Shown here: positions 5,185 to 41,609 of the stretch, piece by piece
Layout of the letters: each line of letters begins with the position of its first letter
How positions within the stretch are numbered: position 1 is the stretch's first letter
From: Deltaproteobacteria bacterium
GTDB lineage: Bacteria; Desulfobacterota; Desulfobulbia; Desulfobulbales; Desulfurivibrionaceae
DNA: 41,742 nucleotides
NCBI GenBank assembly: GCA_021822005.1
Contig: JAJZSH010000003.1
Span: 1-41,742, forward strand
Reading direction: 5' to 3'
Notes under the pieces: model-generated
What the model saw: only the letters and a program-made list of their open reading frames with translations
What the model was told of the DNA's origin: nothing
Database searches by the model: none
Made by a program: the position numbers and the translations under genes

Positions 5185-5418
5185 AGAAGGGCGGAGAAGC
5201 GTTTTTTTTAACGCTGGTGGAGTCCAGCCAGTGGCTGATGTTGTTTCGAGCAGCCCCTGTTCCGGGTTTGCCATCAAGATGGCGGCAGTGTTAACGGCGT
5301 TTATGCCGCCCTTCGCCAGGCGAACGGCCAACTGGTTGATTATCCGTCGCCGCTAACGCTGCTCATCCAAGCCTGTCGAAGGACGAATGAAGAGGGTCAC
5401 CTTGAAAACAACTTGGAA

Positions 5419-9525: not shown

Positions 9526-11020
9526 CCTCCGCAAGTGGAATGAAAAGGATCAACCCCATTCCGGGAAGCGAGAGCAGGAAGCTGATCCCGAAAAAATAGC
9601 CATACCCTGCCCATGCGGCGAGAAAGCCGCTCAATACCCCGGCATACAGACCGCTGAAACTCATCAGCCCTGTGCCGATGGCGTAATGCGCCGCCTTGAA
9701 CCGCGGCTGGCATAAGCGCATGAGAAAGACCATGAGCACCGCGGTTCCAAGGCCTCCGGCGAACTGGTCAAAGGCATGCACGCAGACAACGGCAAGGAGG
9801 TTGTTCCCGCCGATTGCAGCGGGGATGGAATTGCCGGTGTTGAGCAGGACGAAGTCCTTGAGTTTCAGGGCCAGAAACATATAGGCCAGATTGGTGAAAT
9901 TCTGGGCAAGCAAGAGTGGCCAGATCATTTTTTTTAAAGAGTATTTCGAGATAAGCCAGCCGCCGAGCATTGCGCCGATTATGGAGAACGGCAGGCCAAC
10001 CCCGCCGGAAATCCAGCCGTAATGTTTTTTTATGCCCAGGTCGACCATGAATGGCGCAACCATGCTGGAGAGCATGTATTCCCCGGTCCTGATCAGGACG
10101 ATAAATGCCAGGATGGGACCGATTTTTTCACGATCCATAAAGGAAAAGAAGGCTTCGCTGAAAAAGGCGTTGCCCTTGTGCCGCAGCCATTTTTTAATTT
10201 TCCTTCGCTTAAAGCCGATAACCATGAGTGCGGTGACCAGGAGCATGCTGATCAGGGCGGTCAGGTCGATATTGAGCAAGAATCCGTGGCGCGGCAGCAG
10301 GCCCTGCCTGGTGATTGTCTGGCCCAGCAGGCGCAAGGCGACCATGAAAAGTGCGGCAACAACGGCAAGCCTGAGCAGGCGGCCTGCTTTGGCCGTCGGC
10401 AGCAATAGGGTCAGGGGGAGGCGGGCTGCTTCGCTGCGGGGCAAATACCGCAGATGGTAGACGGAAAAAAGCGCCAGAATAAGGGCCGATCCCCCAAAGG
10501 CAACAGGCCAGCCAGAGGTTGTCCCAATGGTTGCGATAATTCCGGCGCCGGCCATCATGGCAATCCGATAGGCCATGACCCGATAGCCGACAAAACGAGC
10601 CTGTCCGGCAGTGTCCAGGGTCTCCAGATAATAGCCGTCAATGGCGATGTCGTGGGTGGCGGCCAGGAAACTTCCGACAAAAAAGGCCATGCCGATGAGG
10701 GGCGTGGCCTGGGGCAGAGGGGCAAGAGCCGCGGCGGTCAGCAGAAGTCCCGCCAGCAGAATCTGCATGATGAGGAGCCACTGGCGTTTGGTGCCATACC
10801 GGTCAACATGCGGCGCCCAAAGAAATTTTAAAGCCCAGGGCAAGCCGAAAAGAGAAGTAAGCCCGATTCCTTCAAGGCTTACGCCGTTGTCCCGGAAAAA
10901 TACGGTGGAAACGGTGCGAATGATTGAGTAGGGCAATCCTTCGCAGAAGTAGGTGGTAAAGGCCCATACTTGGGGGATGGCTGGTTTTGGACCGGAGATC
11001 TTTTTTTCTGTTGCTGTCAT
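9500..11020 (-). CDS. MFS transporter, AmpG/PAT-like
   Basis: Multiple hydrophobic helices; QVWAFTTYFCEGLPYSIIRTVSTVFFRDNGVSLEGIGLTSLFGLPWALKFLWAPHVDRYGTKRQW; ATG at 11020. Confidence 0.82.
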   Translation of the reverse strand: MTATEKKISGPKPAIPQVWAFTTYFCEGLPYSIIRTVSTVFFRDNGVSLEGIGLTSLFGLPWALKFLWAPHVDRYGTKRQWLLIMQILLAGLLLTAAALAPLPQATPLIGMAFFVGSFLAATHDIAIDGYYLETLDTAGQARFVGYRVMAYRIAMMAGAGIIATIGTTSGWPVAFGGSALILALFSVYHLRYLPRSEAARLPLTLLLPTAKAGRLLRLAVVAALFMVALRLLGQTITRQGLLPRHGFLLNIDLTALISMLLVTALMVIGFKRRKIKKWLRHKGNAFFSEAFFSFMDREKIGPILAFIVLIRTGEYMLSSMVAPFMVDLGIKKHYGWISGGVGLPFSIIGAMLGGWLISKYSLKKMIWPLLLAQNFTNLAYMFLALKLKDFVLLNTGNSIPAAIGGNNLLAVVCVHAFDQFAGGLGTAVLMVFLMRLCQPRFKAAHYAIGTGLMSFSGLYAGVLSGFLAAWAGYGYFFGISFLLSLPGMGLILFIPLAEDQQKEALR

Positions 11021-11267
11021 GGTGAAGACACATACTCGATGAAAATATTCTCTATTATACAGATCGATTTCTGTATATAATTTTTTATGCGGCAATGCGC
11101 CACATACAGCGCTTTTTTTCTTGCGGTAAAGAAGAAACCGCGGCGAATACGCAACCGCATGGAGACCTTGCTGCATTGTCGGCAACGCTGAAAGGAAGGG
11201 GATGAGGAAAAAGTCGGCTGAGTCTTTCGCTTTTCATCCGGATATCAATTCTTCCAAGGAGTGAATT

Positions 11268-15323: not shown

Positions 15324-16238
15324 ATGCCATACTCACTGCAGGATCTTCTCCCCCAATTCAGCCGCTGGCTTTCCGTGGAAAAGGGTTATTCCCCCAAGAC
15401 CGTTGAAAGCTATGGCCGGGATCTTGCCGAATTCGCATCGTTTACAGGGTCTGATCAGGATGTCCGCCAGATCGAACCCCGTGCCGTCCGCTCCTATGTG
15501 TATGCCTTAAACGGCAAAAACAAAGGCAGCTCCGTGGCCAGGAAGCTTTCCGCCCTCCGCACCTTTTTTCGTCATCTTCTCCGCGAGGGGGTTATAGTGC
15601 ATGACCCTGTCGCGCCCATTGCCACGCCGAAACAGGAAAAACACATGCCTGTTTTTCTTACGGTGGACGAGGTTTTTACCCTGCTGGAGATGCCGGGCAC
15701 CGAGGATGCCTTTGCCTTTCGTGACCGGGCGATTCTTGAGATCCTCTATTCCACCGGGCTGCGGGTCGCCGAGCTTGCGGCCCTTGACCTGGAGCGTCTT
15801 GACGTCGAAGAGGGCATGCTCCGGGTTACCGGCAAGGGCAACCGGGAACGTCTGGTGCCGGTGGGCAGCCCGGCTCTGGAAGCCCTGGGTCAATACCTGC
15901 CCCAGCGGACCTTGTTGATCCGCGAACGGATCGGTCGCGGGGATGCGCCGGAAAACAGGGCGGTTTTTCTGAACCACCGGGGGTTGCGGCTCACCACCAG
16001 AAGCATCGAACGGCTGGTGAAGCTCTATGCCCTGCGGGCCGGAATCGCCGCCCGGGTAACGCCCCATGCCCTGCGCCATTCCTTTGCCACCCATCTTTTG
16101 GAAATGGGGGCGGATCTGCGGACGGTGCAGGAATTGCTGGGGCATGTCAGCCTGTCAACCACCCAACGGTATACCCATCTGAACATGGATCATCTGAACG
16201 AGGTCTATGACCGGGCCCATCCAAAGGCGGGAAGATGA
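15324..16238 (+). CDS. xerC: Tyrosine recombinase XerC/XerD family
   Basis: N-terminal SAM-like domain and catalytic segments STGLRVAELAALDL, PHALRHSFATHLLEMGADLRTVQELLGHVSLSTTQRYTHL. Confidence 0.9.
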   Translation: MPYSLQDLLPQFSRWLSVEKGYSPKTVESYGRDLAEFASFTGSDQDVRQIEPRAVRSYVYALNGKNKGSSVARKLSALRTFFRHLLREGVIVHDPVAPIATPKQEKHMPVFLTVDEVFTLLEMPGTEDAFAFRDRAILEILYSTGLRVAELAALDLERLDVEEGMLRVTGKGNRERLVPVGSPALEALGQYLPQRTLLIRERIGRGDAPENRAVFLNHRGLRLTTRSIERLVKLYALRAGIAARVTPHALRHSFATHLLEMGADLRTVQELLGHVSLSTTQRYTHLNMDHLNEVYDRAHPKAGR

Positions 16239-16247
16239 AAGGGGATG

Positions 16248-16283
16248 AGGCGTAAGGTGCAAGGATCAAGGCGTAAGGTACAA
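16248..16283. repeat. Short tandem duplication (period 21) AGGCGTAAGGTRCAA
   Basis: aggcgtaaggtgcaa at 16248-16262 and aggcgtaaggtacaa at 16269-16283. Confidence 0.7.
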
Positions 16284-16287
16284 ACTT

Positions 16288-16340
16288 AGGGGCCGTTACG
16301 AAATAACCATTACATTTTTTACCATTTCGTTACGGCCCCT
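16288..16340. terminator. Large imperfect hairpin downstream of xerC, terminator-like
   Basis: aggggccgttacgaaat / atttcgttacggcccct, 17-bp stem with one mismatch, ~19-nt T-rich loop; no classic U tract. Confidence 0.5.
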
Positions 16341-16426
16341 TATGCCGATCACGACATTACAATGTTACAGTTATTTTTGAACGACGGCTTATGGTTGTTG
16401 GGGATGAATATTTAGGAGGAGTAGCT

Positions 16427-16993
16427 TTGAAGATCAGATCGACCACAATCGTTGCCGTCCGGCACAGGGGTGAGGTGGCCCTGGCCGGGGACGGCCAGGT
16501 ATCGCTGGGCAATACCATCATGAAACATGAGGCGCGCAAGGTGCGCCGCCTGTATGAAGGCAAGGTGATCACCGGCTTTGCCGGGGCCACGGCCGACGCC
16601 TTTACCCTGTTTGACCGGCTGGAGCAGAAGCTTGAGCAGTATGACGGCAACCTGATGCGGGCGGCGGTTGAGCTGGCCAAGGACTGGCGCACGGACAAGA
16701 TGCTTCGCAAGCTTGAGGCTTTTCTGGTGGCGGTGGACAAGAATCATTCCCTGCTCCTTTCCGGCACCGGCGACGTGATCGAGCCGGACGACGGGGTGCT
16801 GGCCATCGGCTCGGGCGGGCCATACGCCCAGGCCGCAGCCAAGGCCCTGGTGGCGCACAGCGAGCTTTCCGCCGAGGAGATCTGTAGAGAGGCGATGCGG
16901 ATCGCCGCTTCCATCTGCGTCTATACCAATGACCGCATTGTTGTGGAAAAAATGATGGACTCGCAAAAAGGGAAAAAGGCAACAGGTCCGTAA
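16427..16993 (+). CDS. hslV: ATP-dependent protease subunit HslV (probable TTG start)
   Basis: [61 protein letters not shown]; aggagga 6-7 nt upstream of TTG 16427; C-terminal [12 protein letters not shown] tail lies in the repeat element. Confidence 0.92.
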
Positions 16994-17084
16994 CCCAAGA
17001 TCAAAGAGTTACAAAGCAATAACCGTCGCCGGTCGCTTTCGCTTCCTGCTGTAATCGCGGCTTTTTGCGGTTTCAACAAAAAAT
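16949..17084. repeat. Dispersed ~138-bp element, copy 2 (overlaps 3' end of hslV)
   Basis: Pairs with 4965-5102; begins aaaatgatggactcgcaaaaaggg. Confidence 0.88.
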
Positions 17085-17140
17085 GGCTGCCGAATAATAA
17101 AGAGGTCCGACAGCCGGTTTTATATAAGGAAAATTGTGAG

Positions 17141-18532
<1,392 letters not shown>

Positions 18533-28364: not shown

Positions 28365-28404
28365 GCATGAATATGCCAAGGGCACACAGATACGGAAAAA
28401 CCTC

Positions 28405-31263
28405 ATGCCCTTAACGGACTACCACGCAAAATATTACGCGCATGAGCTGACCAAGCGCTGCCCGCCGGACAGTGTCGAAAAGCTCGCCGGCGCGGTGGTG
28501 AGCGCCCAGGTCGATCTGAATCCGCATCAGGTGGATGCGGCCCTTTTCGCCTTCCAATCGCCGTTGTCGAAGGGAGCGCTGCTGGCGGATGAGGTTGGCC
28601 TTGGCAAAACCATTGAGGCTGGTCTCGTACTTTCGCAGAAGTGGGCGGAACGAAAGCGGCGTATTCTCATCATCACCCCTTCCAACCTCCGTAAGCAGTG
28701 GTTTCAGGAGCTCGCCGAAAAATTCTTCCTGCCCTGCCGCATCCTTGAGGCTAAATCCTACAATGTCGCCATCAAGCAGGGGCAGTTTCGTCCGTTTGAG
28801 GCGCCAGAAATCGTTATTTGCTCCTATCAGTTCGCCAAGAGCAAGGCTGGGGATGTTCAGTCGATCCCCTGGGATCTGGTGGTGATTGACGAAGCGCATC
28901 GGCTGCGTAACGTCTACAAGCCATCGAATGTGATCGCTAAAACCCTCAAAATGGCGTTGGTCGGCAAGGACAAGTTGCTGCTCACCGCTACGCCGTTGCA
29001 GAACTCCCTGCTGGAGCTGTTCGGCCTGGTGAGTTTCATCGATGAACACACCTTTGGCGACCTGAAGAGCTTCCGTGAACAGTTTGTCAATCTCAACCAG
29101 GAACAGGTATTCGAGGCTCTCAAGGCGCGCCTTGCGCCCGTCTGTCATCGCACCCTGCGCCGTCAGGTCACCGCGTACATCCCCTACACCAAGCGGCTGC
29201 CCCTGGTGGAGGAATTCACCCCGGAGGAAAGCGAGGACCGGCTCTATCACCTGGTCTCCGAGTACCTGCAACGCGAAAATCTGCAAGCCCTGCCAGCCGG
29301 CCAGCGGTCGCTGATGACCCTGGTGCTGCGCAAGCTTCTTGCCTCATCCACCTTTGCCATCGCTGGTGCGCTGACCTCCATTTCCGACCGGCTCAAGGCC
29401 AAGCTCCGTCGGCAGGAGCCGGCGCAGTCGTTGGAGGAGGATCTGGACGAGGACTACGAGGCGCTGGACGAAACCGCCGAGGAATGGTCCGCCGACGAAC
29501 CCGGGGAATTCTTTACCGAGGCAGACCGCGCCGCCCTTGAACAGGAGATTGCCGATCTCGATTCGTTCACCGCGCTGGCTGTCTCCATCGAACACAACGC
29601 CAAAGGCAAGGCCCTGCTTAAGGCGCTGGACATCGCCTTTGCCAAGGCCAGGGAAATAGGCGCGGAACAAAAGGCGATCATCTTCACCGAATCGCGCCGC
29701 ACCCAGTCCTACCTGTTGCGCCTTCTGGCGGACAGCCCATTTTCCGAGGGTATCGCCCTGTTCAATGGCTCCAATACCGATGAGCGTTCCAAGCAAATTT
29801 ACAGCCAGTGGCTTGAGCGCCACCAAGGCAGCGACCGGCTCACCGGTTCCCGCACTGCCGACATGCGTTCAGCGCTGGTGGACTACTTCCGCGAGCAAGG
29901 CCGCATCATGATCGCCACCGAGGCCGGGGCCGAGGGCATCAATCTCCAATTCTGCTCCCTGGTGGTGAACTACGACCTGCCCTGGAACCCCCAGCGCATC
30001 GAGCAGCGCATCGGCCGTTGTCATCGTTACGGTCAGAAACATGACGTGGTGGTGGTCAATTTTCTCAACCGCAAAAACGCCGCCGACCAACGTGTCTTCG
30101 AACTGCTGGCCGAAAAATTCCAGCTCTTTGAGGGCGTGTTCGGCGCCAGCGACGAGGTGCTGGGCGCCATCGAGAGCGGCGTTGATTTCGAGAAGCGCAT
30201 CGCCGCCATCTATCAACGCTACCGCAGGCCCGATGAAATCCAGACTGCTTTTGATCAGCTCCAGCTCGAATTGAGCTTGGAGATCAACGAATCCATGACC
30301 CGCACTCGGCAGAAGCTGCTGGAACATTTTGATGACGAGGTGCGCGAGAAGCTCAAGGTGCGTGACGAGGCCTCCCGCGCCTACCTTAACCGCTACGAGC
30401 GGCTACTTATGCAACTTTCCCAGCATGAATTGGCTGGCCACGCTGTGTTCCGAGACGACTCCTCTTTCCTCCTCGAATCGTGTCCATTCCCGGGTGACAT
30501 CCCGCTCGGACTTTATGAACTGCCGCGACGTTCCGGCGAGGCGCACCTGTATCGCTTGAATCACCCGCTAACCGAAGCCTTGGTGGCCCAGGCAAAAGGC
30601 CGCGACCTGCCGCCAGCGGAAATTCATTTTGATTACGGCCAGCACGACGGCAAGGTCTCGCAACTGGAACCGTTTATCGGCAAGACTGGGTGGCTCACTC
30701 TCTCGTTTTTTACCATCGAATCCCTGGACCAGGCAGAAGACCATCTAATTTTTGCGGCAGCTACCGACGATGGCGAGATATTGGGTGAAGAGGTGGCGGC
30801 CCGGCTTTTGACTCTGCCCGGAGACCTGGTCGGAGAAGCTCAACTCGGGTCAAGAAATACACACCTGGATACTATTGTCCAGCAGCGCCAGTCCGTCATC
30901 CAACTTGACATCTCCCAGCGCAATGCCCGTTTCTTCGAGGCCGAGGCAGACAAACTTGATGGTTGGGCCGATGATCTCAAGATGGGGCTGGAACGCGAGA
31001 TCAAGGAGCTGGACCGACAGATTAAAGAGGCCCGGCGTGCTGCAACAGCGGCCTTGACTCTGGAAGAAAAGCTCGTTGGTCAGAAACAGATCAAGGCTCT
31101 GGAAGCGCAACGCAATCAGAAGAGACGAACCCTCTTCGAAGCCCAGGATAAGGTAGACGCGCAACGAGAAGAGTTGATTGCCAAGATTGAAGGGAAGTTG
31201 CAGCAGAAAACTGGGTTAGTCCAGCTTTTTGCTATTAGATGGTATATAACAGATGAAAAATAG
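28405..31263 (+). CDS. SNF2-family DEAD/DEAH helicase (defence/R-M associated)
   Basis: LADEVGLGKTIEAGLVLSQKW, VVIDEAHRLRN, LTATPLQNSLLELFGLVSFID, IATEAGAEGINLQFCSLVVNYDLPWNPQRIEQRIGRCHRYGQ; long C-terminal coiled-coil. Confidence 0.9.
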   Translation: MPLTDYHAKYYAHELTKRCPPDSVEKLAGAVVSAQVDLNPHQVDAALFAFQSPLSKGALLADEVGLGKTIEAGLVLSQKWAERKRRILIITPSNLRKQWFQELAEKFFLPCRILEAKSYNVAIKQGQFRPFEAPEIVICSYQFAKSKAGDVQSIPWDLVVIDEAHRLRNVYKPSNVIAKTLKMALVGKDKLLLTATPLQNSLLELFGLVSFIDEHTFGDLKSFREQFVNLNQEQVFEALKARLAPVCHRTLRRQVTAYIPYTKRLPLVEEFTPEESEDRLYHLVSEYLQRENLQALPAGQRSLMTLVLRKLLASSTFAIAGALTSISDRLKAKLRRQEPAQSLEEDLDEDYEALDETAEEWSADEPGEFFTEADRAALEQEIADLDSFTALAVSIEHNAKGKALLKALDIAFAKAREIGAEQKAIIFTESRRTQSYLLRLLADSPFSEGIALFNGSNTDERSKQIYSQWLERHQGSDRLTGSRTADMRSALVDYFREQGRIMIATEAGAEGINLQFCSLVVNYDLPWNPQRIEQRIGRCHRYGQKHDVVVVNFLNRKNAADQRVFELLAEKFQLFEGVFGASDEVLGAIESGVDFEKRIAAIYQRYRRPDEIQTAFDQLQLELSLEINESMTRTRQKLLEHFDDEVREKLKVRDEASRAYLNRYERLLMQLSQHELAGHAVFRDDSSFLLESCPFPGDIPLGLYELPRRSGEAHLYRLNHPLTEALVAQAKGRDLPPAEIHFDYGQHDGKVSQLEPFIGKTGWLTLSFFTIESLDQAEDHLIFAAATDDGEILGEEVAARLLTLPGDLVGEAQLGSRNTHLDTIVQQRQSVIQLDISQRNARFFEAEADKLDGWADDLKMGLEREIKELDRQIKEARRAATAALTLEEKLVGQKQIKALEAQRNQKRRTLFEAQDKVDAQREELIAKIEGKLQQKTGLVQLFAIRWYITDEK

Positions 31264-31273
31264 ACAAAAAAAA

Positions 31274-31329
31274 GGGAGTGTTTGGTGCGGCGGGCCGCTT
31301 TGCGGTCTCTAACCACACCCTTAACTCCC
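31274..31329. other. Structured intergenic inverted repeat between the helicase and HEPN genes
   Basis: GGGAGT...ACTCCC outer arms, TGGTG...CCACA, inner CCGC-ttt-GCGG. Confidence 0.5.
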
Positions 31330-31413
31330 ACGGTGTCAGGTATGAAAAACTAATGAACCCGTACTCATTTTTAAAGTAAACATGTCAAGCTAGCCAAGTC
31401 AAGAGGATTGTTT

Positions 31414-33192
31414 ATGAGAGTATTGCCACAGGAGATGGTTGCTGACGCCAAATTATTACCCCAAGAAAAGTACTTTCTGGAGCTTTGGTATAGCATGACC
31501 CATATGCAATCATTAGACTCATATCGGGTCAGGTGCATGAACTCTCGCACCATTATACGTGAACTCTCCGAAGAGCTTGATATTGGGATAATAAAGGAAA
31601 ATGAGTTTAAAAATCTTTGCGCTGAGACAAAAGCGATTCTGGAGAACGATCCTATAATCCTGCATGATTTTCCCCAATACTGGACGACCATAAAGCCCTA
31701 TCTGGAATCCCCCCCGTCATCTCAAAAGAAAAAAACCGATAATGAAAACAAAGAAAAAAGCCAATTACAGTACGTGTCCAGCGATTTTTTCTGCAGTTTA
31801 GAGAAAGCCTACTTTGAAAAAATTATCGCCATGCTTCCCGGCTCCATCAGGCCGGACAATGGAAAAGACTTAAAAGTCTTGGTGGATGCCCTTATCGGCG
31901 ATTTGCTTGATAGGGGGTGGCCATTGGAAACGCTTTTTGGTTGGCATAGGCACTTTTTGGTAAAGAAACCCCGTAAAGACTATACTTTTCAAGAAAACTT
32001 AAATTTCATGCTCAAGGTGTTTACAAGCCCTCCGATACAACATCAGGTGACACTCCGGCTTCAAGGCAGTAACACCCTAGGCAAACTTAACAGCTATGGA
32101 GATTTTTCCTTTGTCGAAAGTGTGGATGTTGCCGACAGCCGGTCACGAAATAAATTTCAAAAAAAACAAGGTGCCACTTTTGCCCAGACCATACTCGGTG
32201 AGGTTGATGCCCTCTCTGCGGCAATTCGTGGCAGGGAAAAATTTGAGCAACTTGTTGATCTTCTTCGTTTTGATCTTGAACCGGCAAAATTGCGAATCGA
32301 CCCTCGCTGTTATGTAAAGAGATTGGATAATGGGAAGGAAGATTTCCCCGCAATTCACGCATCCGTGCCAAACCCAAGCGAAAAATTTGGACATGACGAG
32401 TTTGTTGCCTTTGCGCAGAATCTTGATACCGTCTGCAATAAAAGCGGAATTGAAGCGAGCTCAAGAAGACAGCTGCAGGCTGCCATCAGACAATATCGGT
32501 TTGGCAGGGACAGCGAGAACTATAATGATAAATTCTTAAACTGGTGGATGGGGCTGGAGGCACTAAGTCGTGTTGGGAATGGAAAAGAGATAGGGGCGAC
32601 GGTGGCATGCAATGTCAGCCGAGCAATGGCTGTACCCTATCTGCACAGATTAGTTCGAGACCTTGCCACGACTCTTAAATTTTGCCGAATAAATTGGCCT
32701 GCCAAATTGGTTGAAGTTTCAGGCTGCGACCAACTTGAAAAGCTTACCTTGAATCAACTTGTCACTGTCCTCCAATCCGGCGAACACCAACTGCTCTGGG
32801 ATCAATGTGAGGCCTTCCCAACGGTTTGTTTCAGGGGTAAAGAAATTGGTGACATTCTCTCCGATCCTAAAAAAACTGCGGGTCGCATGAAAAGCCACCT
32901 ACAGCACCTCGAATGGCATCTGGAGCGCCTTTATCGAATACGCTGTTGTATTGTACATGGAGCACCTGTTCGGTTCCGCCTTGGGCTTCTTGCGGCCAAC
33001 CTGGAATACTACCTCAAGCAAGTTATCCTGCTGGTGCTAAATACTTTTAGGAGTAGCGACCACGTTGGTAGTCTTGCGGAGTTTTTTGATCGAGCCTCAT
33101 TCGCATATGACCGGGCAATAAAAGAGCTTGATGGTGGGGATGCCGGGGTGGAAGAGGTTCGGTCCACAGTTAACCTTGGTTTTGTTTTGTAG
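31414..33192 (+). CDS. HEPN-domain (Apea-like) protein with large uncharacterised N-terminal region
   Basis: C-terminal LNWWMGLEALSRVGNGKEIGATVACNVSRAMA and RIRCCIVHGAPVRFRLGLLAANLEYYLKQVI with R-x4-H (RCCIVH). ATG 31414 preceded by agagg. Confidence 0.75.
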   Translation: MRVLPQEMVADAKLLPQEKYFLELWYSMTHMQSLDSYRVRCMNSRTIIRELSEELDIGIIKENEFKNLCAETKAILENDPIILHDFPQYWTTIKPYLESPPSSQKKKTDNENKEKSQLQYVSSDFFCSLEKAYFEKIIAMLPGSIRPDNGKDLKVLVDALIGDLLDRGWPLETLFGWHRHFLVKKPRKDYTFQENLNFMLKVFTSPPIQHQVTLRLQGSNTLGKLNSYGDFSFVESVDVADSRSRNKFQKKQGATFAQTILGEVDALSAAIRGREKFEQLVDLLRFDLEPAKLRIDPRCYVKRLDNGKEDFPAIHASVPNPSEKFGHDEFVAFAQNLDTVCNKSGIEASSRRQLQAAIRQYRFGRDSENYNDKFLNWWMGLEALSRVGNGKEIGATVACNVSRAMAVPYLHRLVRDLATTLKFCRINWPAKLVEVSGCDQLEKLTLNQLVTVLQSGEHQLLWDQCEAFPTVCFRGKEIGDILSDPKKTAGRMKSHLQHLEWHLERLYRIRCCIVHGAPVRFRLGLLAANLEYYLKQVILLVLNTFRSSDHVGSLAEFFDRASFAYDRAIKELDGGDAGVEEVRSTVNLGFVL

Positions 33193-33228
33193 CAATACCT
33201 TGCCGGATGGCGTTGAGAAGGATAAGCA

Positions 33229-33348
33229 ATGAAGAAACAAAAACTCGAACTGACCTGGATTGGCAAGGAGGAGCGGCCGAGACTGTGTCAATGGCTCTTA
33301 GGACAGAAGATAAATGTTCCTTTTTCCCTGGTGAACCAAAGGCAATAG
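33229..33348 (+). pseudogene. Truncated duplicate of the mod methyltransferase 5' end (39-codon remnant)
   Basis: MKKQKLELTWIGKEERPRL... matches MKKQKLELTWIDKEVRPRL at 36164; 62-bp alignment 33224-33285 vs 36159-36220 with 6 mismatches by eye, then no similarity. Confidence 0.88.
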
Positions 33349-33352
33349 ATTC

Positions 33353-34393
33353 GTGACCCTCGAACTGTCCGATGTAAAACGACTGCTCCAAGATCACCTT
33401 CAAGAGGGCCTACTCCTTGTTGTTGGGACAGGTTTGTCTATCGCTGAGGGTCTGCCCGGTATGTGGCCACTCGGCGAGCACCTCAAGAAGGTAATTCCCG
33501 AGCGTTTGATCACTTTCCCCGACACCGCCTGGGAGGATGTGGTTGTGGCACTGGATGCCGGTGACCATCTTGAAGCGGCAATGGCCAAGGCGGATTTGAA
33601 GGCCACGACAGTTGATGCAATTGTCGCAACAACCGCCAACCTAATTCTGGAAAAGGAACTAGAGGTTGTTGAGCAAGTTCTTTCTGGTGCGAAGGTTCTT
33701 CCTTTCACCGTATTTGTTAAGCACCTTTTTAAGGCGGGGAAGAAATTCCATCTCATTACGCCCAATTATGATCGACTTATCGAGGTTGCTACGGAGGCGG
33801 CCGGCGTCGGAGTTAATACCCGTTTTGTCGGGAATCTAATCGGTCACTCTGACCCCAAAAGATCTGCCGATTCTCATCGGGAGTCTTTCATGGCAGGAAA
33901 AAACGCGATGTTCCGACCCGTTCCAAACCTTTGTGTTTATAAACCGCATGGTAGCTTGGACTGGTTCGATATTGGTGGGAGTGTGGTTCGGTGCCCTATG
34001 AAAACCGGACAGGCGCCGCTCATCATTACTCCCGGGGCAAGCAAGTACAGGGAAAGTTTCCGCTGGGCTTTCGATGATCAGCGTACTGCCGGAAATAAAT
34101 GTGTGGCTAATGCCACTCGCTTAATGTTCATCGGTTATGGGTTTAACGATGATCATTTAGAGCAGCATATTTGCCCTGGCCTAAAGCTCACGAAGCCGAC
34201 GGTTATCATAACGAAACAACTTTCGGAAAACGCACAAAAAGTTATAGCCAGTAGCGGTGGTGTCCAGGTCATAGCGTTGTGCGCAGTTTCAGATGGTGAC
34301 CCCCGGACTCGCATTACCAATTCTAGCGGTGAACAACTAATAGTTGACGAACAACTTTGGCACTTAGATGGATTTAACAAAGGAGTGATATGA
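33353..34393 (+). CDS. SIR2-family protein (predicted NAD+-hydrolysing defence effector)
   Basis: VVGTGLSIAEGLPGMWPLGEHL, HLITPNYDRLIEVATEAAG, YKPHGSLDWFD, RLMFIGYGFNDDHLEQHI; GTG start. Confidence 0.86.
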   Translation: MTLELSDVKRLLQDHLQEGLLLVVGTGLSIAEGLPGMWPLGEHLKKVIPERLITFPDTAWEDVVVALDAGDHLEAAMAKADLKATTVDAIVATTANLILEKELEVVEQVLSGAKVLPFTVFVKHLFKAGKKFHLITPNYDRLIEVATEAAGVGVNTRFVGNLIGHSDPKRSADSHRESFMAGKNAMFRPVPNLCVYKPHGSLDWFDIGGSVVRCPMKTGQAPLIITPGASKYRESFRWAFDDQRTAGNKCVANATRLMFIGYGFNDDHLEQHICPGLKLTKPTVIITKQLSENAQKVIASSGGVQVIALCAVSDGDPRTRITNSSGEQLIVDEQLWHLDGFNKGVI

Positions 34394-36156
34394 TGGCGTC
34401 TATCGTAATGTCATTTGAAGGTGAAATCCCCATGGGGCGGGTTATGTCAGTCGATACGATGCGAGTGTTTATACATGTCGATGACCACGAATTACTCAAG
34501 AAGGTAATGGTTGGTAATTTAATCGCCATCAATGGCGCTACGGGGCATCAATTTCTAATATCCATCGTTGAGCGGATCACACGGTTGCCATCGGATGCTG
34601 TTGTTGCCAGCGAGGCATTGGATGATGAGACATTGCCTCAGCCAGAGGAAATGCAAGACACCATTAGAGCGGTATTGGTCGGAACATACAGGGTCAAGGA
34701 TGGTGACTCCGGGCCGTCATTCAAACGGGGCGCAGATTCGTGCCCCCAGATTGATCAGCCATGTCACCTTATCCAAGGGGCAAATTTGACGGCATTTATG
34801 GGCGTCTTGTCTCAAGATGTTCCGGCAGACAAAGCACTTCGTTTAGGTCATTTTGCCATTGACCCGACCGCTGAGGCAGTGGCAGACGGAGACAGATTCT
34901 TTCAGCGACATGCAGCAATTCTTGGGAGCACCGGTAGTGGGAAAAGCTACACTGTCGCGGCACTTCTAGAGAGGGCAAATACTCTCAGCCATCCAAACAT
35001 TCTACTCCTCGATATGCACGGGGAGTATGTTTCGCTCGCGAAAGGACAAGAGTATGGATACGCGGAATATTTCAAAATTGCCGGTCCTGGCGATCTTGTA
35101 GCGCCGGGGGCCCACTGTTTGTTTCTTCCATACTGGCTATTGAACCGAGAAGAAATGCTTTCAATGCTACTGGATCGGAGTGATCAAAATGCACCGAACC
35201 AGGCTCAAGTTTTTACGAGTTTGGTCAGCGATGGTAAACGTAAAACCTTGGTTGACGAAGGAAGGTCCGAAGTGGAAGCTTCTTTCACCGTTGATTCACC
35301 AATCCCTTATGATATTGATGCCGTAGTTAAAGAATTGGATCGACTCGACAATGATCGTGAACCTGGTGCTCGGGCAGGTACTGATCGGAAGGGTGAGTGG
35401 AATGGGAAGTTAACAAGATTTATCAGCCGTCTGCGAGCAAAGTCAGAAGATCGACGCTATGGGTTCCTCTTTCAGCCACCTCCGGAAAGCAGCACATACG
35501 ATTGGCTTTCAATGCTGGCCGTAAGACTCCTTGCAACAAATGGCGAACATAGTTCGGGGATAAAAGTTGTGGATTTCTCAGAGGTACCCTCCGACGTATT
35601 GCCAACTGTTGTAAGTGTAATGGCACGAGTCCTTTACGATGTGCAATTCTGGATGAACGCTGAGTTGCGAACTCCTGTGTGCCTCGTTTGTGATGAGGCT
35701 CACCTTTATTTACCAGTAAGAGCAGATGCGGATGCAGCAGCAAAAAGGGCTCTCGATACTTTTGAGCGAATCGCCAAGGAAGGTAGGAAATATGGGTTTG
35801 CGCTCCTGGTAGTAAGTCAGCGTCCTTCGGATGTAAGCAAAACTATTCTGAGTCAATGTAATAATTTCATCGCATTAAGACTCACCAACGAACAGGATCA
35901 ATCGGCAGTAAAGTCTGTGATGCCTGATAGCATGGCGGGTATAGCTGATGTATTGCCACTCCTTGATATTGGAGAGGCGATTGTCCTAGGCGATTCAATC
36001 CTTCTCCCTTCGCGGATCAAGTTGGACAAACCAAAGGCAACACCGCTGAGTCTGACCAAAAACTTTTGGCGAGAGTGGGGCGAAAAGTCTTCTGATACGG
36101 CAGCAATTGTGGCGGCCGTTGAGAGCTTGCGACGGCAAAGTAAAGTAAGGGTGTAG
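34390..36156 (+). CDS. HerA-like ATPase/translocase (partner of SIR2)
   Basis: Walker A GSTGSGKSYTVAALLE, DMHGEYVSLA, Walker B CLVCDEAHLYLP, FALLVVSQRPSDVSKTILSQCNNFIALRLTNEQDQ; ATGA overlap with SIR2 stop. Confidence 0.92.
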   Translation: MMASIVMSFEGEIPMGRVMSVDTMRVFIHVDDHELLKKVMVGNLIAINGATGHQFLISIVERITRLPSDAVVASEALDDETLPQPEEMQDTIRAVLVGTYRVKDGDSGPSFKRGADSCPQIDQPCHLIQGANLTAFMGVLSQDVPADKALRLGHFAIDPTAEAVADGDRFFQRHAAILGSTGSGKSYTVAALLERANTLSHPNILLLDMHGEYVSLAKGQEYGYAEYFKIAGPGDLVAPGAHCLFLPYWLLNREEMLSMLLDRSDQNAPNQAQVFTSLVSDGKRKTLVDEGRSEVEASFTVDSPIPYDIDAVVKELDRLDNDREPGARAGTDRKGEWNGKLTRFISRLRAKSEDRRYGFLFQPPPESSTYDWLSMLAVRLLATNGEHSSGIKVVDFSEVPSDVLPTVVSVMARVLYDVQFWMNAELRTPVCLVCDEAHLYLPVRADADAAAKRALDTFERIAKEGRKYGFALLVVSQRPSDVSKTILSQCNNFIALRLTNEQDQSAVKSVMPDSMAGIADVLPLLDIGEAIVLGDSILLPSRIKLDKPKATPLSLTKNFWREWGEKSSDTAAIVAAVESLRRQSKVRV

Positions 36157-36163
36157 AGAAGCA

Positions 36164-37837
36164 ATGAAGAAACAAAAGCTCGAACTGACCTGGATCGATA
36201 AGGAGGTGCGGCCGCGACTGGAGCCGCGCATTCTGCTGGAAGATCCAGAGTTGTCCTACCATGCGGCGCACCGGGTGACGGAGGGCGACATCTTCGACAA
36301 CCGGCTGATCTTCGGCGACAACCTGTTGGCCTTGAAGGCTTTGGAGCAGGAGTTTACCGGCAGAGTGAAGTGCGTGTTCATCGACCCGCCGTACAATACT
36401 GGTTCCGCCTTCACCCATTACGACGACGGGGTGGAGCATTCGATCTGGCTGTCGCTGATGCGCGACCGGTTGGAGATTATCCGGCGGCTGCTTTCTGAGG
36501 ACGGTTCGTTGTGGATCACCATTGACGACAACGAGTGCCATTATCTCAAGGTGTTGTGCGATGAGGTGTTCGGCAGAGCAAACTTTTTGTCCAACTTCAT
36601 TTGGCAGAAGAGTTACGGTGGAGGCTCTAAAGCTCGCTGGTTTGTTGGGCTGCATGAGCACATGCTTTGCTACGCCAAAGACATGTCGAAATTACCGGAT
36701 ATGTGGTTGCCCCCTGATCCAGAAGCAGTAAAGAAATACTACAAGTTCTCGGACGGTAAGCTTGCAGATAGAGGCCCGTATCGTTTGCAGCCTCTTGCAA
36801 CGACCAGCATGGATGATCGTCCAAATCTTCGGTATCCGATAATGCTGGAGGATGGCCGAGAGATATGGCCAGAAAAGCAATGGCAGTGGTCAAAAGACCG
36901 TGTCGAGCGTGCCTTAATTGATGACGGGATTGTCATTTCCGAAAAAAAAGGCAAGATGACGGTCTCATATAAACAGTACCTACGTGACCCTTTAGGTGAA
37001 GAACGTGGCCGTAAACCAGTATCAATTATTACCGGGCATTACACGCAGCACGGCACGTACGAGAGCATGGAATTATTCGGCTTGGAGAACAAATTTTCGT
37101 TTCCCAAGCCAGAAGGGTTGATTCATACGATCTTGGAGTGTTGCACCAACCCCGGCGATCTAGTCCTCGACTCCTTCTCCGGTTCCGGCACTACCGGCGC
37201 CGTGGCCCACAAAATGGGCCGACGTTGGATCATGGTGGAACTGGGTGAGCACTGCCACACCCACATCATTCCCCGTCTCAAAAAGGTCGTTGATGATGAA
37301 GACCCAGGCGGCATTAGCAAGAGCGTCAACTGGCGGGGAGGTGGCGGCTTCCGTTACTACCGCCTGGCCCCATCCCTCCTCGAAAAGGATCGCTGGGGCA
37401 ACTGGGTGATCAACCAGACCTATAACGGCGCCATGCTGGCCGAGGCCCTTTGCAAGCTGGAGGGCTTCACCTACGCCCCTTCGGATGCCATCTACTGGCA
37501 GCATGGCCACTCCACCGAGCGGGACTTCGTCTACGTCACCACCGCCAGCCTCACCCACGAGCAGTTGCAGGAACTCGCCTACGAGGTGGGGCCGGAACGG
37601 TCGCTCCTCGTCCTTTGCACCGCCTTTCGGGGCCGGGGCGACTATGCCAATCTCACGGTCAAGAAGATTCCCCGCCAGGTCCTCTCCCGCTGCGAATGGG
37701 GCCACGACGATTACAGCCTGAAAGTGGAGAATCTGCCGGCTGCGCCACCCTCACCCCTGACCCCTCTCCCAGAGGGCGAGGGGAGAAAAGGCGGATCAAG
37801 GCAAGCGTCACTGTTCGGCGAGGAGGGGCAGGCATGA
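36164..37837 (+). CDS. Site-specific DNA methyltransferase, type III Mod-like (beta class)
   Basis: LIFGDNLLALKALEQEF, CVFIDPPYNTGSAFTHYDDG, later NPGDLVLDSFSGSGTTGAVAHKMGRRWIMVE. Confidence 0.93.
   Translation: MKKQKLELTWIDKEVRPRLEPRILLEDPELSYHAAHRVTEGDIFDNRLIFGDNLLALKALEQEFTGRVKCVFIDPPYNTGSAFTHYDDGVEHSIWLSLMRDRLEIIRRLLSEDGSLWITIDDNECHYLKVLCDEVFGRANFLSNFIWQKSYGGGSKARWFVGLHEHMLCYAKDMSKLPDMWLPPDPEAVKKYYKFSDGKLADRGPYRLQPLATTSMDDRPNLRYPIMLEDGREIWPEKQWQWSKDRVERALIDDGIVISEKKGKMTVSYKQYLRDPLGEERGRKPVSIITGHYTQHGTYESMELFGLENKFSFPKPEGLIHTILECCTNPGDLVLDSFSGSGTTGAVAHKMGRRWIMVELGEHCHTHIIPRLKKVVDDEDPGGISKSVNWRGGGGFRYYRLAPSLLEKDRWGNWVINQTYNGAMLAEALCKLEGFTYAPSDAIYWQHGHSTERDFVYVTTASLTHEQLQELAYEVGPERSLLVLCTAFRGRGDYANLTVKKIPRQVLSRCEWGHDDYSLKVENLPAAPPSPLTPLPEGEGRKGGSRQASLFGEEGQA
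37748..37784. repeat. Dispersed-type GC-rich palindromic repeat inside mod 3' coding region
   Basis: accctcacccctgacccctctcccagagggcgagggga, encoding SPLTPLPEGEG. Confidence 0.65.
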
Positions 37838-38898
37838 CCTCAAAAATATCAGCCCTGCCCGCCAAGGCGCTCCTTCACGACCTTCGCAGTCTGATCGAAG
37901 AAACCCGCGCCACTGTCGCCACCACGGTCAACGCCGCCCTGACCATGCTTTACTGGCGAGTCGGCAAGCGTATCCATCAGGAGATTTTTCAGGGAGAACG
38001 GGCTGACTATGGCGAGGCAATTGTCGCTACAGTGTCGCGACAATTGGTCGCCGAGTATGGTTCTGGATTCGCGGGAAAAAGCCTCCGGCACATGATGCGT
38101 TTTGCCGAGGTGTTCCCGGATGAGCAGATTGTCTCTACGCTGTGGAGACAATTGAGCTGGTCCCATTTCAAGGAGATCATTTACCAGAAAGATTCCCTCC
38201 AGCGCGACTTCTATGCCGAGATGTGCCGGATGGAACGCTGGAGCGTTCGCACCCTGCGCCAGAAGATCGACTCCATGCTCTTCGAGCGCACGGCCTTATC
38301 CAAAAAGCCCGGCGAATTGATTCGCCTGGAGCTCGACGCCCTGCGCCATGAAGACCTGCTTACCCCGGACCTAGTCTTCCGCGACCCGTACTTTCTCGAT
38401 TTTCTCGGCCTTAAAGACCGGTATCGGGAAAAAGACCTGGAAGATGCCATCCTGCGGGAACTGGAACTGTTCCTCCTCGAACTCGGGGCCGGGTTTTCCT
38501 TTATCGCCCGCCAGAAGCGCATCCAGGTGGATAACGACGATTACTACCTCGACCTGCTGTTCTTCCACCGCAGATTGAAACGGCTGGTGGCCATCGAACT
38601 CAAACTCGGCCAATTCAAACCGGCCGACAAGGGCCAAATGGAACTCTATCTTCGCTGGCTGGACAAATACGAACGGCAGGCAGGGGAAGAGCCGCCCATC
38701 GGCCTGATTCTTTGCGCCGGGAAGAAACATGAAACAGTGGAACTTCTAGAACTCGAACAAAGCGGCATCCGGGTAGCGGAGTACCTGACCGGACTGCCAT
38801 CGCGCGAGATTCTGGAAAAGGAACTTCATAAGGCCCTTGCCCAGGCCCGGCAACGGTTTGCGCTGCAACAGGAACAAAAAAATGAGGTGGAGCCGTGA
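37834..38898 (+). CDS. DUF1016/YhcG-like PDDEXK nuclease domain protein
   Basis: ALTMLYWRVGKRIHQEI, FAEVFPDEQIVSTLWRQLSWSHFKEI, DDYYLDLLFFHRRLKRLVAIELKLGQFKPADKGQMELYLRWLDKY; ATGA overlap with mod stop. Confidence 0.92.
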   Translation: MTSKISALPAKALLHDLRSLIEETRATVATTVNAALTMLYWRVGKRIHQEIFQGERADYGEAIVATVSRQLVAEYGSGFAGKSLRHMMRFAEVFPDEQIVSTLWRQLSWSHFKEIIYQKDSLQRDFYAEMCRMERWSVRTLRQKIDSMLFERTALSKKPGELIRLELDALRHEDLLTPDLVFRDPYFLDFLGLKDRYREKDLEDAILRELELFLLELGAGFSFIARQKRIQVDNDDYYLDLLFFHRRLKRLVAIELKLGQFKPADKGQMELYLRWLDKYERQAGEEPPIGLILCAGKKHETVELLELEQSGIRVAEYLTGLPSREILEKELHKALAQARQRFALQQEQKNEVEP

Positions 38899-41609
38899 AC
38901 CGCCATGTCAACGCCATCTCCGGCCGTTTGTCGCTTCGGCCGCCCCAGCGGACTTCGCTTGAAATACTCCACCGCATCACCGAAATTGCGCCGCCGGGCA
39001 AGGAGGCCGATACCGCCGCCACTCTGGAGGCGATTCGCGGCGAGTATCCATCTGTCACCGACTTTGAGCGGGAGTTTCCTTCGCTCTGCTTTGCCCTGGC
39101 CACCGGGGTCGGCAAGACCCGCTTGATGGGTGCCTTTGTCAGCTATCTCCATTTGGCCCACGGCATCAACAATTTCTTCGTGCTGGCGCCCAATCTGACC
39201 ATCTACAACAAGCTGATCGCCGATTTTACGCCGAATACCCCCAAGTATGTCTTTAAGGGGATTGCCGAGTTCGCCGTCGAGCCGCCTACCGTCATCACCG
39301 GCGACACCTATGAGAGCGGGGTGGGTGTCCGGGAGGAGGCGCGGAGGCAAAGCCGGTTGCCGGGCATTGCGGGATATGATGGCGTCCACATCAATATCTT
39401 CAATATTTCCAAGATCAACTCCGAGGTGCGGGGCGGGAAATCTCCCCGGATCAAGCGGCTCTCCGAGTATATCGGCGAGAGTTACTTCGATTACCTCGCG
39501 GGCTTGCCGGATTTGGTGCTGCTCATGGATGAGTCGCATCGCTACCGGGCCAGCGCCGGGGTGCGGGCTATCAACGAATTGAAGCCGATTCTAGGCCTGG
39601 AACTGACCGCCACACCTTTTGTGGAGACCGGCAAGGGGCCGGTGCCATTCAAGAACGTTATTTATGACTACCCCTTGGGCCGGGCCATGGACGACGGTTT
39701 TGTCAAGGAGCCGGCGGTGGTGACCCGCAAGAATTTCAATCCGGCCGGCATGTCGGCGGAAGAGATCGAGCGGTTGAAACTGGAGGACGGCATCCGGCTG
39801 CACGAGAGCGTCAAGGTGGAGCTCGAAACCTACGCCCGTGAAGCCGCCCAGCCTATCGTCAAACCCTTTCTGCTGGTCATCGCCCGCGACACCACCCATG
39901 CCGGCCAGCTTCTTGCCCGGATTCAGTCTGCCGAGTTCTTCGGAGGGCGTTACCAGGACAAGGTCATCCAGGTGGACTCAAGCCGAACCGGCAAGGACGA
40001 GGAGGAGATGATCGAACGGCTCCTCAAGGTCGAGCACACCGAGGAACCGACCGAAATAGTCATTCATGTCAACATGCTCAAAGAGGGCTGGGACGTGACC
40101 AACCTCTACACCATTGTGCCGCTCCGCGCCGCCAATGCCCGCATCCTCATCGAGCAATCCATCGGCCGGGGGTTGCGGCTGCCCTACGGCAAGCGGACCG
40201 GGGTCATGGCGGTGGACCGGCTCAATATCGTGGCCCACGACAAGTTTCAGGAGATCATCGACGAGGCCAACCGGCCCGATTCGGCCATCCGCCTGCAAGC
40301 CGTAGTTATTGATGGGGAAGAGCTGGAGAAGAAAACGGTGACCGTGGTGTCGCAGTCGCAGCTGGCCACCAAGCTGGGGTTTCATCCTGCCCAAGTGACG
40401 GCAAGCACTGCAGTGGCAGGGCAGGATGAAAAGCCGCTCTTTGCTGATCCGCAGGAACAGAAGGTAGCGCAGACCGCCTGGGAGGTGATCAAGAATTTTG
40501 AAAACCAGCCGCGAACCGTGCCATCCCTCACCCACCTTGCCAATCCGGAAATTCAGGCTGCCATTGTCAAGGCGGTGGAGGAACGGCAGCCTCCGCCGCT
40601 CGGCCTGGAAGGCTTCGCCGAAAAGCCGGATATTGCCGCCGTGGTGGCGAAGACCGTAGAGCTGGTTGCGGAACAGACCATCGACATCCCGCGCATACTC
40701 GTGGTGCCAAAGGGTGAGGTAAAGTCGGGCTTCAAGTCGTTCAGGCTCAAGCTCGACACCCTCAAGTATCCGGCCGTGTCCGAGGATCTTTGGGTGCAGT
40801 ATCTCCGTACCGGTGAAAGCATGGCGGTGACACCAGCCCGTGGCCACAACGAGGAACCGCTTCTTTCGAACTACATTGTCCGTTGCCTGATGGATTTCAG
40901 CGATGTTTCCTACGATGACCACGCCGATCTGCTCTATGATCTCGCCGGTCAGGCGGTCCGGCATTTTGAGAACTACCTGAAGCCGGAGGAGGTCATCGAC
41001 GTAGTCCGCTGCCATCAACACGACATTGCCCGTTTTATCCACGCCCAGATGCAGGAACACTACTGGGAGGAGGTCGCCGAATACGAAGTGAAGGTGAGCA
41101 AGGGGTTCACCGAACTGAAAGCGAGCGCCTATACCTGCGCCACGGCGGAGTCTCTTGCTGATTACCGGGTCTCCCCGACCGACAGGAGCAACATGGCCAG
41201 ATATCTCTTTGGCGGCTTCGCCCGTTGTCTTTATCCGGTGCAGAAGTTCGAATCGGATAGTGAACGCAGGCTGGCGGTGATTCTGGAACGGGAGGCCTTG
41301 AAATGGTTCCGGCCCGCCAAGGGCCAGTTTCAGATTTTCTACCGCCAGGGCGCGGATCACCGCGAATATCAGCCCGATTTTGTCGCGGAAACCGCCGAGG
41401 CGGTCTATATGCTCGAACCGAAAATGCGCAAGGACCTCGAAGACCCGGTGGTTATCAGCAAAAAGGAAGCCGCTGTCAAATGGTGCGCCAATGCGACGGA
41501 GTATGCTGCGAGCCACGGTGGTAAGCCCTGGCTCTATGTGCTGATTCCCCATGACGAAATTGCGGAAAATATGACCTTGGCGGTACTTGCGGAACGATTC
41601 GCCACTTGA
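38895..41609 (+). CDS. Type III restriction Res-like helicase-nuclease
   Basis: CFALATGVGKTRLMGAFV, VLLMDESHRYRA, GLELTATPF, NMLKEGWDVTNLYTIVPLRAANARILIEQSIGRGLRLPYG; C-terminal YQPDFVAETAEAVYMLEPK nuclease-like. GTG start overlapping the preceding stop. Confidence 0.93.
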   Translation: MNRHVNAISGRLSLRPPQRTSLEILHRITEIAPPGKEADTAATLEAIRGEYPSVTDFEREFPSLCFALATGVGKTRLMGAFVSYLHLAHGINNFFVLAPNLTIYNKLIADFTPNTPKYVFKGIAEFAVEPPTVITGDTYESGVGVREEARRQSRLPGIAGYDGVHINIFNISKINSEVRGGKSPRIKRLSEYIGESYFDYLAGLPDLVLLMDESHRYRASAGVRAINELKPILGLELTATPFVETGKGPVPFKNVIYDYPLGRAMDDGFVKEPAVVTRKNFNPAGMSAEEIERLKLEDGIRLHESVKVELETYAREAAQPIVKPFLLVIARDTTHAGQLLARIQSAEFFGGRYQDKVIQVDSSRTGKDEEEMIERLLKVEHTEEPTEIVIHVNMLKEGWDVTNLYTIVPLRAANARILIEQSIGRGLRLPYGKRTGVMAVDRLNIVAHDKFQEIIDEANRPDSAIRLQAVVIDGEELEKKTVTVVSQSQLATKLGFHPAQVTASTAVAGQDEKPLFADPQEQKVAQTAWEVIKNFENQPRTVPSLTHLANPEIQAAIVKAVEERQPPPLGLEGFAEKPDIAAVVAKTVELVAEQTIDIPRILVVPKGEVKSGFKSFRLKLDTLKYPAVSEDLWVQYLRTGESMAVTPARGHNEEPLLSNYIVRCLMDFSDVSYDDHADLLYDLAGQAVRHFENYLKPEEVIDVVRCHQHDIARFIHAQMQEHYWEEVAEYEVKVSKGFTELKASAYTCATAESLADYRVSPTDRSNMARYLFGGFARCLYPVQKFESDSERRLAVILEREALKWFRPAKGQFQIFYRQGADHREYQPDFVAETAEAVYMLEPKMRKDLEDPVVISKKEAAVKWCANATEYAASHGGKPWLYVLIPHDEIAENMTLAVLAERFAT

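Follow-up and report, generated by a model that had tools for sequence, protein, structure and literature searches.

A divergent ApeA homologue with a predicted HEPN ribonuclease site in a variable cargo slot of an SNF2-Mod-YhcG-Res defence system

The gene at positions 31414 to 33192 of a 41,742-nucleotide stretch of DNA from a Desulfurivibrionaceae bacterium (this whole stretch is called the window below) encodes, as judged by homology, a divergent yet full-length protein of the known ApeA family, whose bacterial members cut RNA and act against phages. It lies between the helicase gene (SNF2) and mod of an SNF2-Mod-YhcG-Res system, in a slot where related systems hold differing defence genes. 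We consider it likely that the protein combines an N-terminal region for sensing or assembly with a C-terminal HEPN RNase, that it is triggered by a DNA breakdown product, and that it serves as slot cargo with a backup role.

Results

The apeA gene and its predicted active site

The window contains the following features, with L numbers designating the other loci compared in this study:

28402..31263, + strand: DrmD_b-like SNF2 helicase, the host system's first core gene, with 79-87% identical genes in related genomes
31268..31332, + strand: stable hairpin (-29 kcal/mol, 56-nt) with no T tract, between helicase and apeA
31414..33192, + strand: apeA homologue, 592 aa, start ATG at 31414
31414..32463, + strand: residues 1-350, the ApeA N-terminal region, with homology to the corresponding part of solved Ec1ApeA and Ec4ApeA
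32542..32559, + strand: W-x2-LE motif (residues 377-382; W378, E382) of the conserved C-terminal HEPN region, invariant in 14/14
32941..32958, + strand: R510-CCIV-H515, predicted HEPN RNase active site, the sole R-x4-H in the protein, invariant in 14/14
33221..33286, + strand: 19 codons left over from the 5' end of a mod gene, more similar to mod starts in related systems than to the downstream mod
33353..34393, + strand: SIR2-domain protein, second cargo in the slot (PADLOC SIR2 4e-104)
34390..36156, + strand: HerA ATPase, partner of SIR2 (PADLOC HerA 1e-227)
36164..37837, + strand: type III DNA methyltransferase Mod, core (PADLOC MTase_III 7e-201)
37834..38898, + strand: DUF1016/YhcG-type PD-(D/E)XK protein (PADLOC PDC-S02), found at the corresponding position in related systems too
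38895..41609, + strand: type III restriction subunit Res, core (PADLOC REase_III 4e-217)

The location of apeA between the SNF2 helicase and the 5' remnant of mod, as given in the preliminary description of this DNA, was confirmed. The open frame on the + strand extends from 31408 to 33192 and is intact over 592 codons; the initial methionine of the relatives aligns with the ATG at 31414, and an in-frame TTG at 31408 is the less likely start. The hairpin between SNF2 and apeA was not seen in the related loci, and scans for terminators and promoters gave results at chance level.

Within the protein, WWMGLEALSRVG begins at residue 377 and RIRCCIVHG at residue 508, and the C-terminal half is predicted to be helical. 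The HEPN pattern with R-x4-H that had been described earlier is indeed present, and R510, H515, W378 and E382 were each found in all 14 aligned relatives, down to about 20% identity. The R-x4-H motif by itself was discarded as proof of a HEPN domain, since at least one such motif occurs in 61% of shuffled versions of the window protein; the significance of the active-site pair derives from its conservation and not from its mere presence. An AlphaFold2 model built from three sequences (window, L002 and L003) reached a mean pLDDT of 46.7, too low for a judgement of the fold, and was set aside.

Homology to solved ApeA proteins

The PADLOC model for ApeA matched residues 16-518 (1.6e-11), and a phmmer search against the Protein Data Bank returned Ec4ApeA (9hxm) at 2.3e-24 over residues 14-573, followed by Ec1, Ec3 and Ec2ApeA. 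A profile made from eight relatives retrieved all four solved ApeA proteins (Ec1, Ec2, Ec3 and Ec4) at about 1e-31 or better, with an Ec4 score inflated by the close Ec4ApeA relatives that the profile contains. Apart from 9hxm, the solved E. coli structures are 9hxn (Ec1), 9hxb-9hxi (Ec2) and 9hxj (Ec3).

The first ~370 residues had initially been described as matching nothing, which proved to be wrong: residues 1-350 alone matched Ec1ApeA (phmmer E 4.9e-10), and an N-terminal profile of six rows, made without enterobacterial sequences, matched Ec4ApeA at 5.7e-23 over 1-345 and Ec1ApeA at 7.9e-20. An unassigned N-terminal region was thereby ruled out, this part being the ApeA N-terminal region found in the solved structures. 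It looks like an orphan because neither Pfam nor NCBIfam holds a model that matches the window ApeA; likewise, no Pfam model reached its cut-off for the relatives tested. A region named ApeA-NTD1, described as consisting mostly of beta strands (PMC3710099), may correspond to the N-terminal region of the window protein, which has no Pfam match. Together with the invariant R-x4-H, the homology to ApeA supports the prediction, already made in the preliminary description, that this is a HEPN RNase effector.

The window protein resembles E. coli ApeA over its whole length, including the N-terminal region, and both have R-x4-H and W-x2-LE in common. However, identity to the plasmid-borne relatives of Ec4ApeA is about 22%, and the window gene is embedded in an SNF2-Mod-YhcG-Res system, unlike the Ec4-type genes on plasmids, which stand by themselves. 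The best full-length relative found was 45% identical. Because the window branch is divergent, its ligand may differ from that of E. coli ApeA.

Distribution and gene context of ApeA relatives

The ApeA family is rare and patchy in the whole genomes sampled. Relatives were present in four of 263 genomes of the window's class (its own genome included), in none of 16 genomes of the same genus, in 4/396 genomes of the window's phylum and 3/390 of the phylum of L002, and in 3/186 and 4/185 genomes of two orders. No relative was found in the phages collection or, in five scans, in viral contigs. The closest full-length relatives, with 40-45% identity, are encoded on the Pelobacter propionicus plasmid pPRO1 (L006) and in two Verrucomicrobiota genomes (L002, L003), and a tree of 17 proteins, some long branches of which are unsure, placed the window protein together with these three (100/100).

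Contact with a modification system, of four kinds in total, was seen at nine of the 14 ApeA loci from chromosomes or whole genomes (the window, L002, L003, L014, L015, L027, L028, L075 and L077), and L026, L029, L076, L078 and L079 show no obvious contact; L030, where the match covers about 53 residues and the sequence contains further good ORFs, was omitted from these counts. In L002 the gene lies within a BREX locus in the order brxA, brxB, brxC, apeA, pglX, pglZ, and in L003 and L015 it is found between HmaA and HmaB, followed by HmaC. The type I restriction-modification (R-M) locus of L027 has the order hsdM, hsdS, apeA, RelA/SpoT-domain gene, hsdR. In L077 apeA is followed by hsdM, in L028 hsdR is located near apeA, and in L075 a fragment resembling the N-terminus of HmaA precedes apeA immediately. 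A type IIG enzyme and a helicase, in convergent orientation, are present at the ApeA locus of L006. On plasmids of Enterobacterales and Burkholderiaceae, the relatives are stand-alone genes. On the 17-protein tree the label embedded or alone was clustered (9 of 500 shuffles were as low), with near-copies and biased sampling of plasmids contributing to this clustering.

Three further observations were made at these loci. The apeA-containing BREX locus of L002 also has an AIPR/AbiU-like gene (16210-17997), located between pglX and pglZ. The RelA/SpoT-domain gene between apeA and hsdR (L027, 10690-11568) could be a further embedded effector or its control. In L014, a genome of the same family as the window, positions 10465-11076 carry an in-frame fusion of an HsdM-like start, assigned by reading of the sequence and not by family search, to a C-terminal ApeA fragment, a decayed relic.

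A variable cargo slot between SNF2 and mod

Related genomes have the SNF2 gene, then a gap and then Mod, YhcG and Res, which is the window's order, wherever the contig is long enough. SNF2-Mod-YhcG-Res systems hold differing defence genes in this single slot between SNF2 and mod. In the window the slot contains ApeA and then SIR2-HerA; its contents elsewhere are:

L058: SLFN_AlbA_2 and ParA-like genes
L059: GMT-wHTH-domain protein, DUF5131 and SLFN_AlbA_2
L061: the first two cargo genes of L059 (GMT-wHTH-domain protein, DUF5131), by sequence
L060: SMC-like ATPase
L062: AIPR/AbiU-like gene and SMC-like ATPase
L063: AbiEii-like AAA ATPase
L064 and L065: empty
More distant plasmid systems: AIPR and VapC in L066, SIR2-HerA in L068, nothing in L067

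Between ApeA and SIR2-HerA, the window retains a duplicate mod start of 57 nt that is 96% identical to the mod of L058 and 89% identical to the window's own mod. The mod 5' end forms a direct repeat in the window (33221-33286 and 36156-36221, ~89% over 65 nt). In L058, part of the SNF2 3' end is duplicated inside the slot, at positions 5301-5490 (190 nt, 89%).

The two remnants, the mod start in the window and the SNF2 end in L058, look like what would be left behind if two versions of the system had recombined and thereby stacked their cargo. Since the first mod copy resembles the mod of related systems more than it resembles the window's own mod, SIR2-HerA and the new mod allele probably arrived later, by recombination into an older SNF2-ApeA-mod arrangement. 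Among related systems, identity between the Mod proteins is 80-96% in the first 150 residues and falls to 24-32% in the middle (residues ~150-300 of the product of window 36164-37837), a drop to be expected where target recognition domains have been swapped.

A SNF2 helicase directly upstream is a feature also of systems with the DISARM and Hma helicases (DrmD_b, HmaA). The window helicase was nevertheless rejected as a marker of DISARM or Hma, because its score against DrmD_b (683) misses the cut-off of 950 and no drmA, drmB, drmC or HmaB/C partners were found among the window proteins scanned, up to the contig end at 41742.

Discussion

The window ApeA is probably, to judge from its sequence, a stand-alone HEPN RNase that halts infection at the cell's expense. 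HEPN domains are metal-independent RNases (Anantharaman 2013, PMC3710099), and such a site is predicted here at R510-x4-H515 of the C-terminal domain, with the N-terminal region likely serving in sensing or assembly. In healthy cells ApeA would most likely be silent. Upon infection, DNA degradation by phage or restriction nucleases would lead to the accumulation of small products that bind ApeA, and we infer that the activated HEPN domain would then cut cellular RNA, so that growth and phage production stop and the cell pays for it. The title of a preprint on E. coli ApeA names deoxydinucleotides as its activator (Juozapaitis 2026, reference 19 in PMC13405049), and they would be the activator here as well if that report holds for the window branch.

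ApeA does not appear to need Mod or Res, because plasmids carry relatives by themselves and ApeA is cited as a defence system in its own right; it would function as a single protein that travels as cargo within DNA-modification defence systems. As several unrelated systems host it, and in view of the activator named in the preprint title, the evidence points to a DNA breakdown product rather than Mod/Res activity as the sensed signal. In the slot between SNF2 and mod, ApeA could act once restriction is beaten or once phage nucleases degrade DNA.

This backup role, and not the assignment to ApeA, is what would be called into question if the slot were simply a recombination hotspot for any defence gene and ApeA were functionally unconnected to restriction, a reading to which we give somewhat less than an even chance. 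The contents of the slot are mutually unrelated, remnants of core genes in two slots show recombinational stacking, and stand-alone ApeA relatives exist, all of which fits with it. However, the contact of nine of the 14 sampled chromosomal ApeA loci with modification systems of four kinds argues against this reading, and so does the clustering of the embedded label on the tree, read with the near-copies and plasmid sampling in mind.

A closer link to the host system is provided by the example of PrrC, likewise a HEPN RNase within a restriction operon (the type I R-M system PrrI). By analogy, binding of SNF2, Mod or Res would keep ApeA inactive, and a phage inhibitor of restriction would free it. 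PrrC works in this manner in its type I operon, the principle has been extended to HEPN families linked to R-M systems (Anantharaman 2013, PMC3710099), and apeA is located among core genes in the window as well as in BREX, Hma and type I operons. Nevertheless, we regard such a guard function as unlikely: the host systems have no common protein as a possible partner, related ApeA proteins exist alone, and the window ApeA differs from PrrC/RloC in its N-terminal region and in having no ABC ATPase domain that is matched by Pfam. Even more doubtful is direct cutting of phage RNA instead of host RNA, which is known from some HEPN families (RnlA/LsoA; PMC3710099) but for whose phage-specific targeting the sequence offers nothing. 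That apeA is a dead or decaying gene can hardly be maintained, although fragments of the same gene occur in a genome of the same family (L004/L014) and a broken copy in L079, given the intact frame and the presence of every invariant residue.

ApeA itself, HEPN genes in R-M operons and the embedding of defence systems are all known. The ApeA/BMEI1217 HEPN family was listed as embedded in R-M operons in epsilonproteobacteria (Anantharaman 2013 table, PMC3710099); it shares with the loci described here the active R-x4-6H HEPN domain and the R-M embedding, but the hosts here are SNF2-Mod-Res, BREX and Hma systems. That one defence can be nested within another has also been published (Payne 2024 preprint, as cited in PMC12255303). 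Such embedded defences, and DarTG2 inside type I R-M, likewise have a second defence between the core genes of the first, whereas the window host is a type III-like SNF2-Mod-YhcG-Res system with a slot of varying content. In the open-access literature searched, neither this variable slot nor ApeA within BREX or Hma was found described.

While the protein itself is fairly ordinary, its position as swappable cargo in a type III-like restriction-modification cluster is of greater interest. A protein missed by Pfam and NCBIfam now belongs to a family with solved structures and a reported activator, which makes its function directly testable, and SNF2-Mod-YhcG-Res systems have a variable cargo slot with traces of how cargo stacks. 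It is conceivable, if rather improbable, that SNF2-Mod-Res, BREX, Hma and type I R-M systems repeatedly took up ApeA as a reader of DNA destruction, resulting in a two-stage circuit in which DNA cutting would generate a deoxynucleotide signal and, if the infection persists, RNA cleavage. The proposed link between restriction and ApeA is testable: if it exists, DNA fragments produced by one defence would trigger the other.
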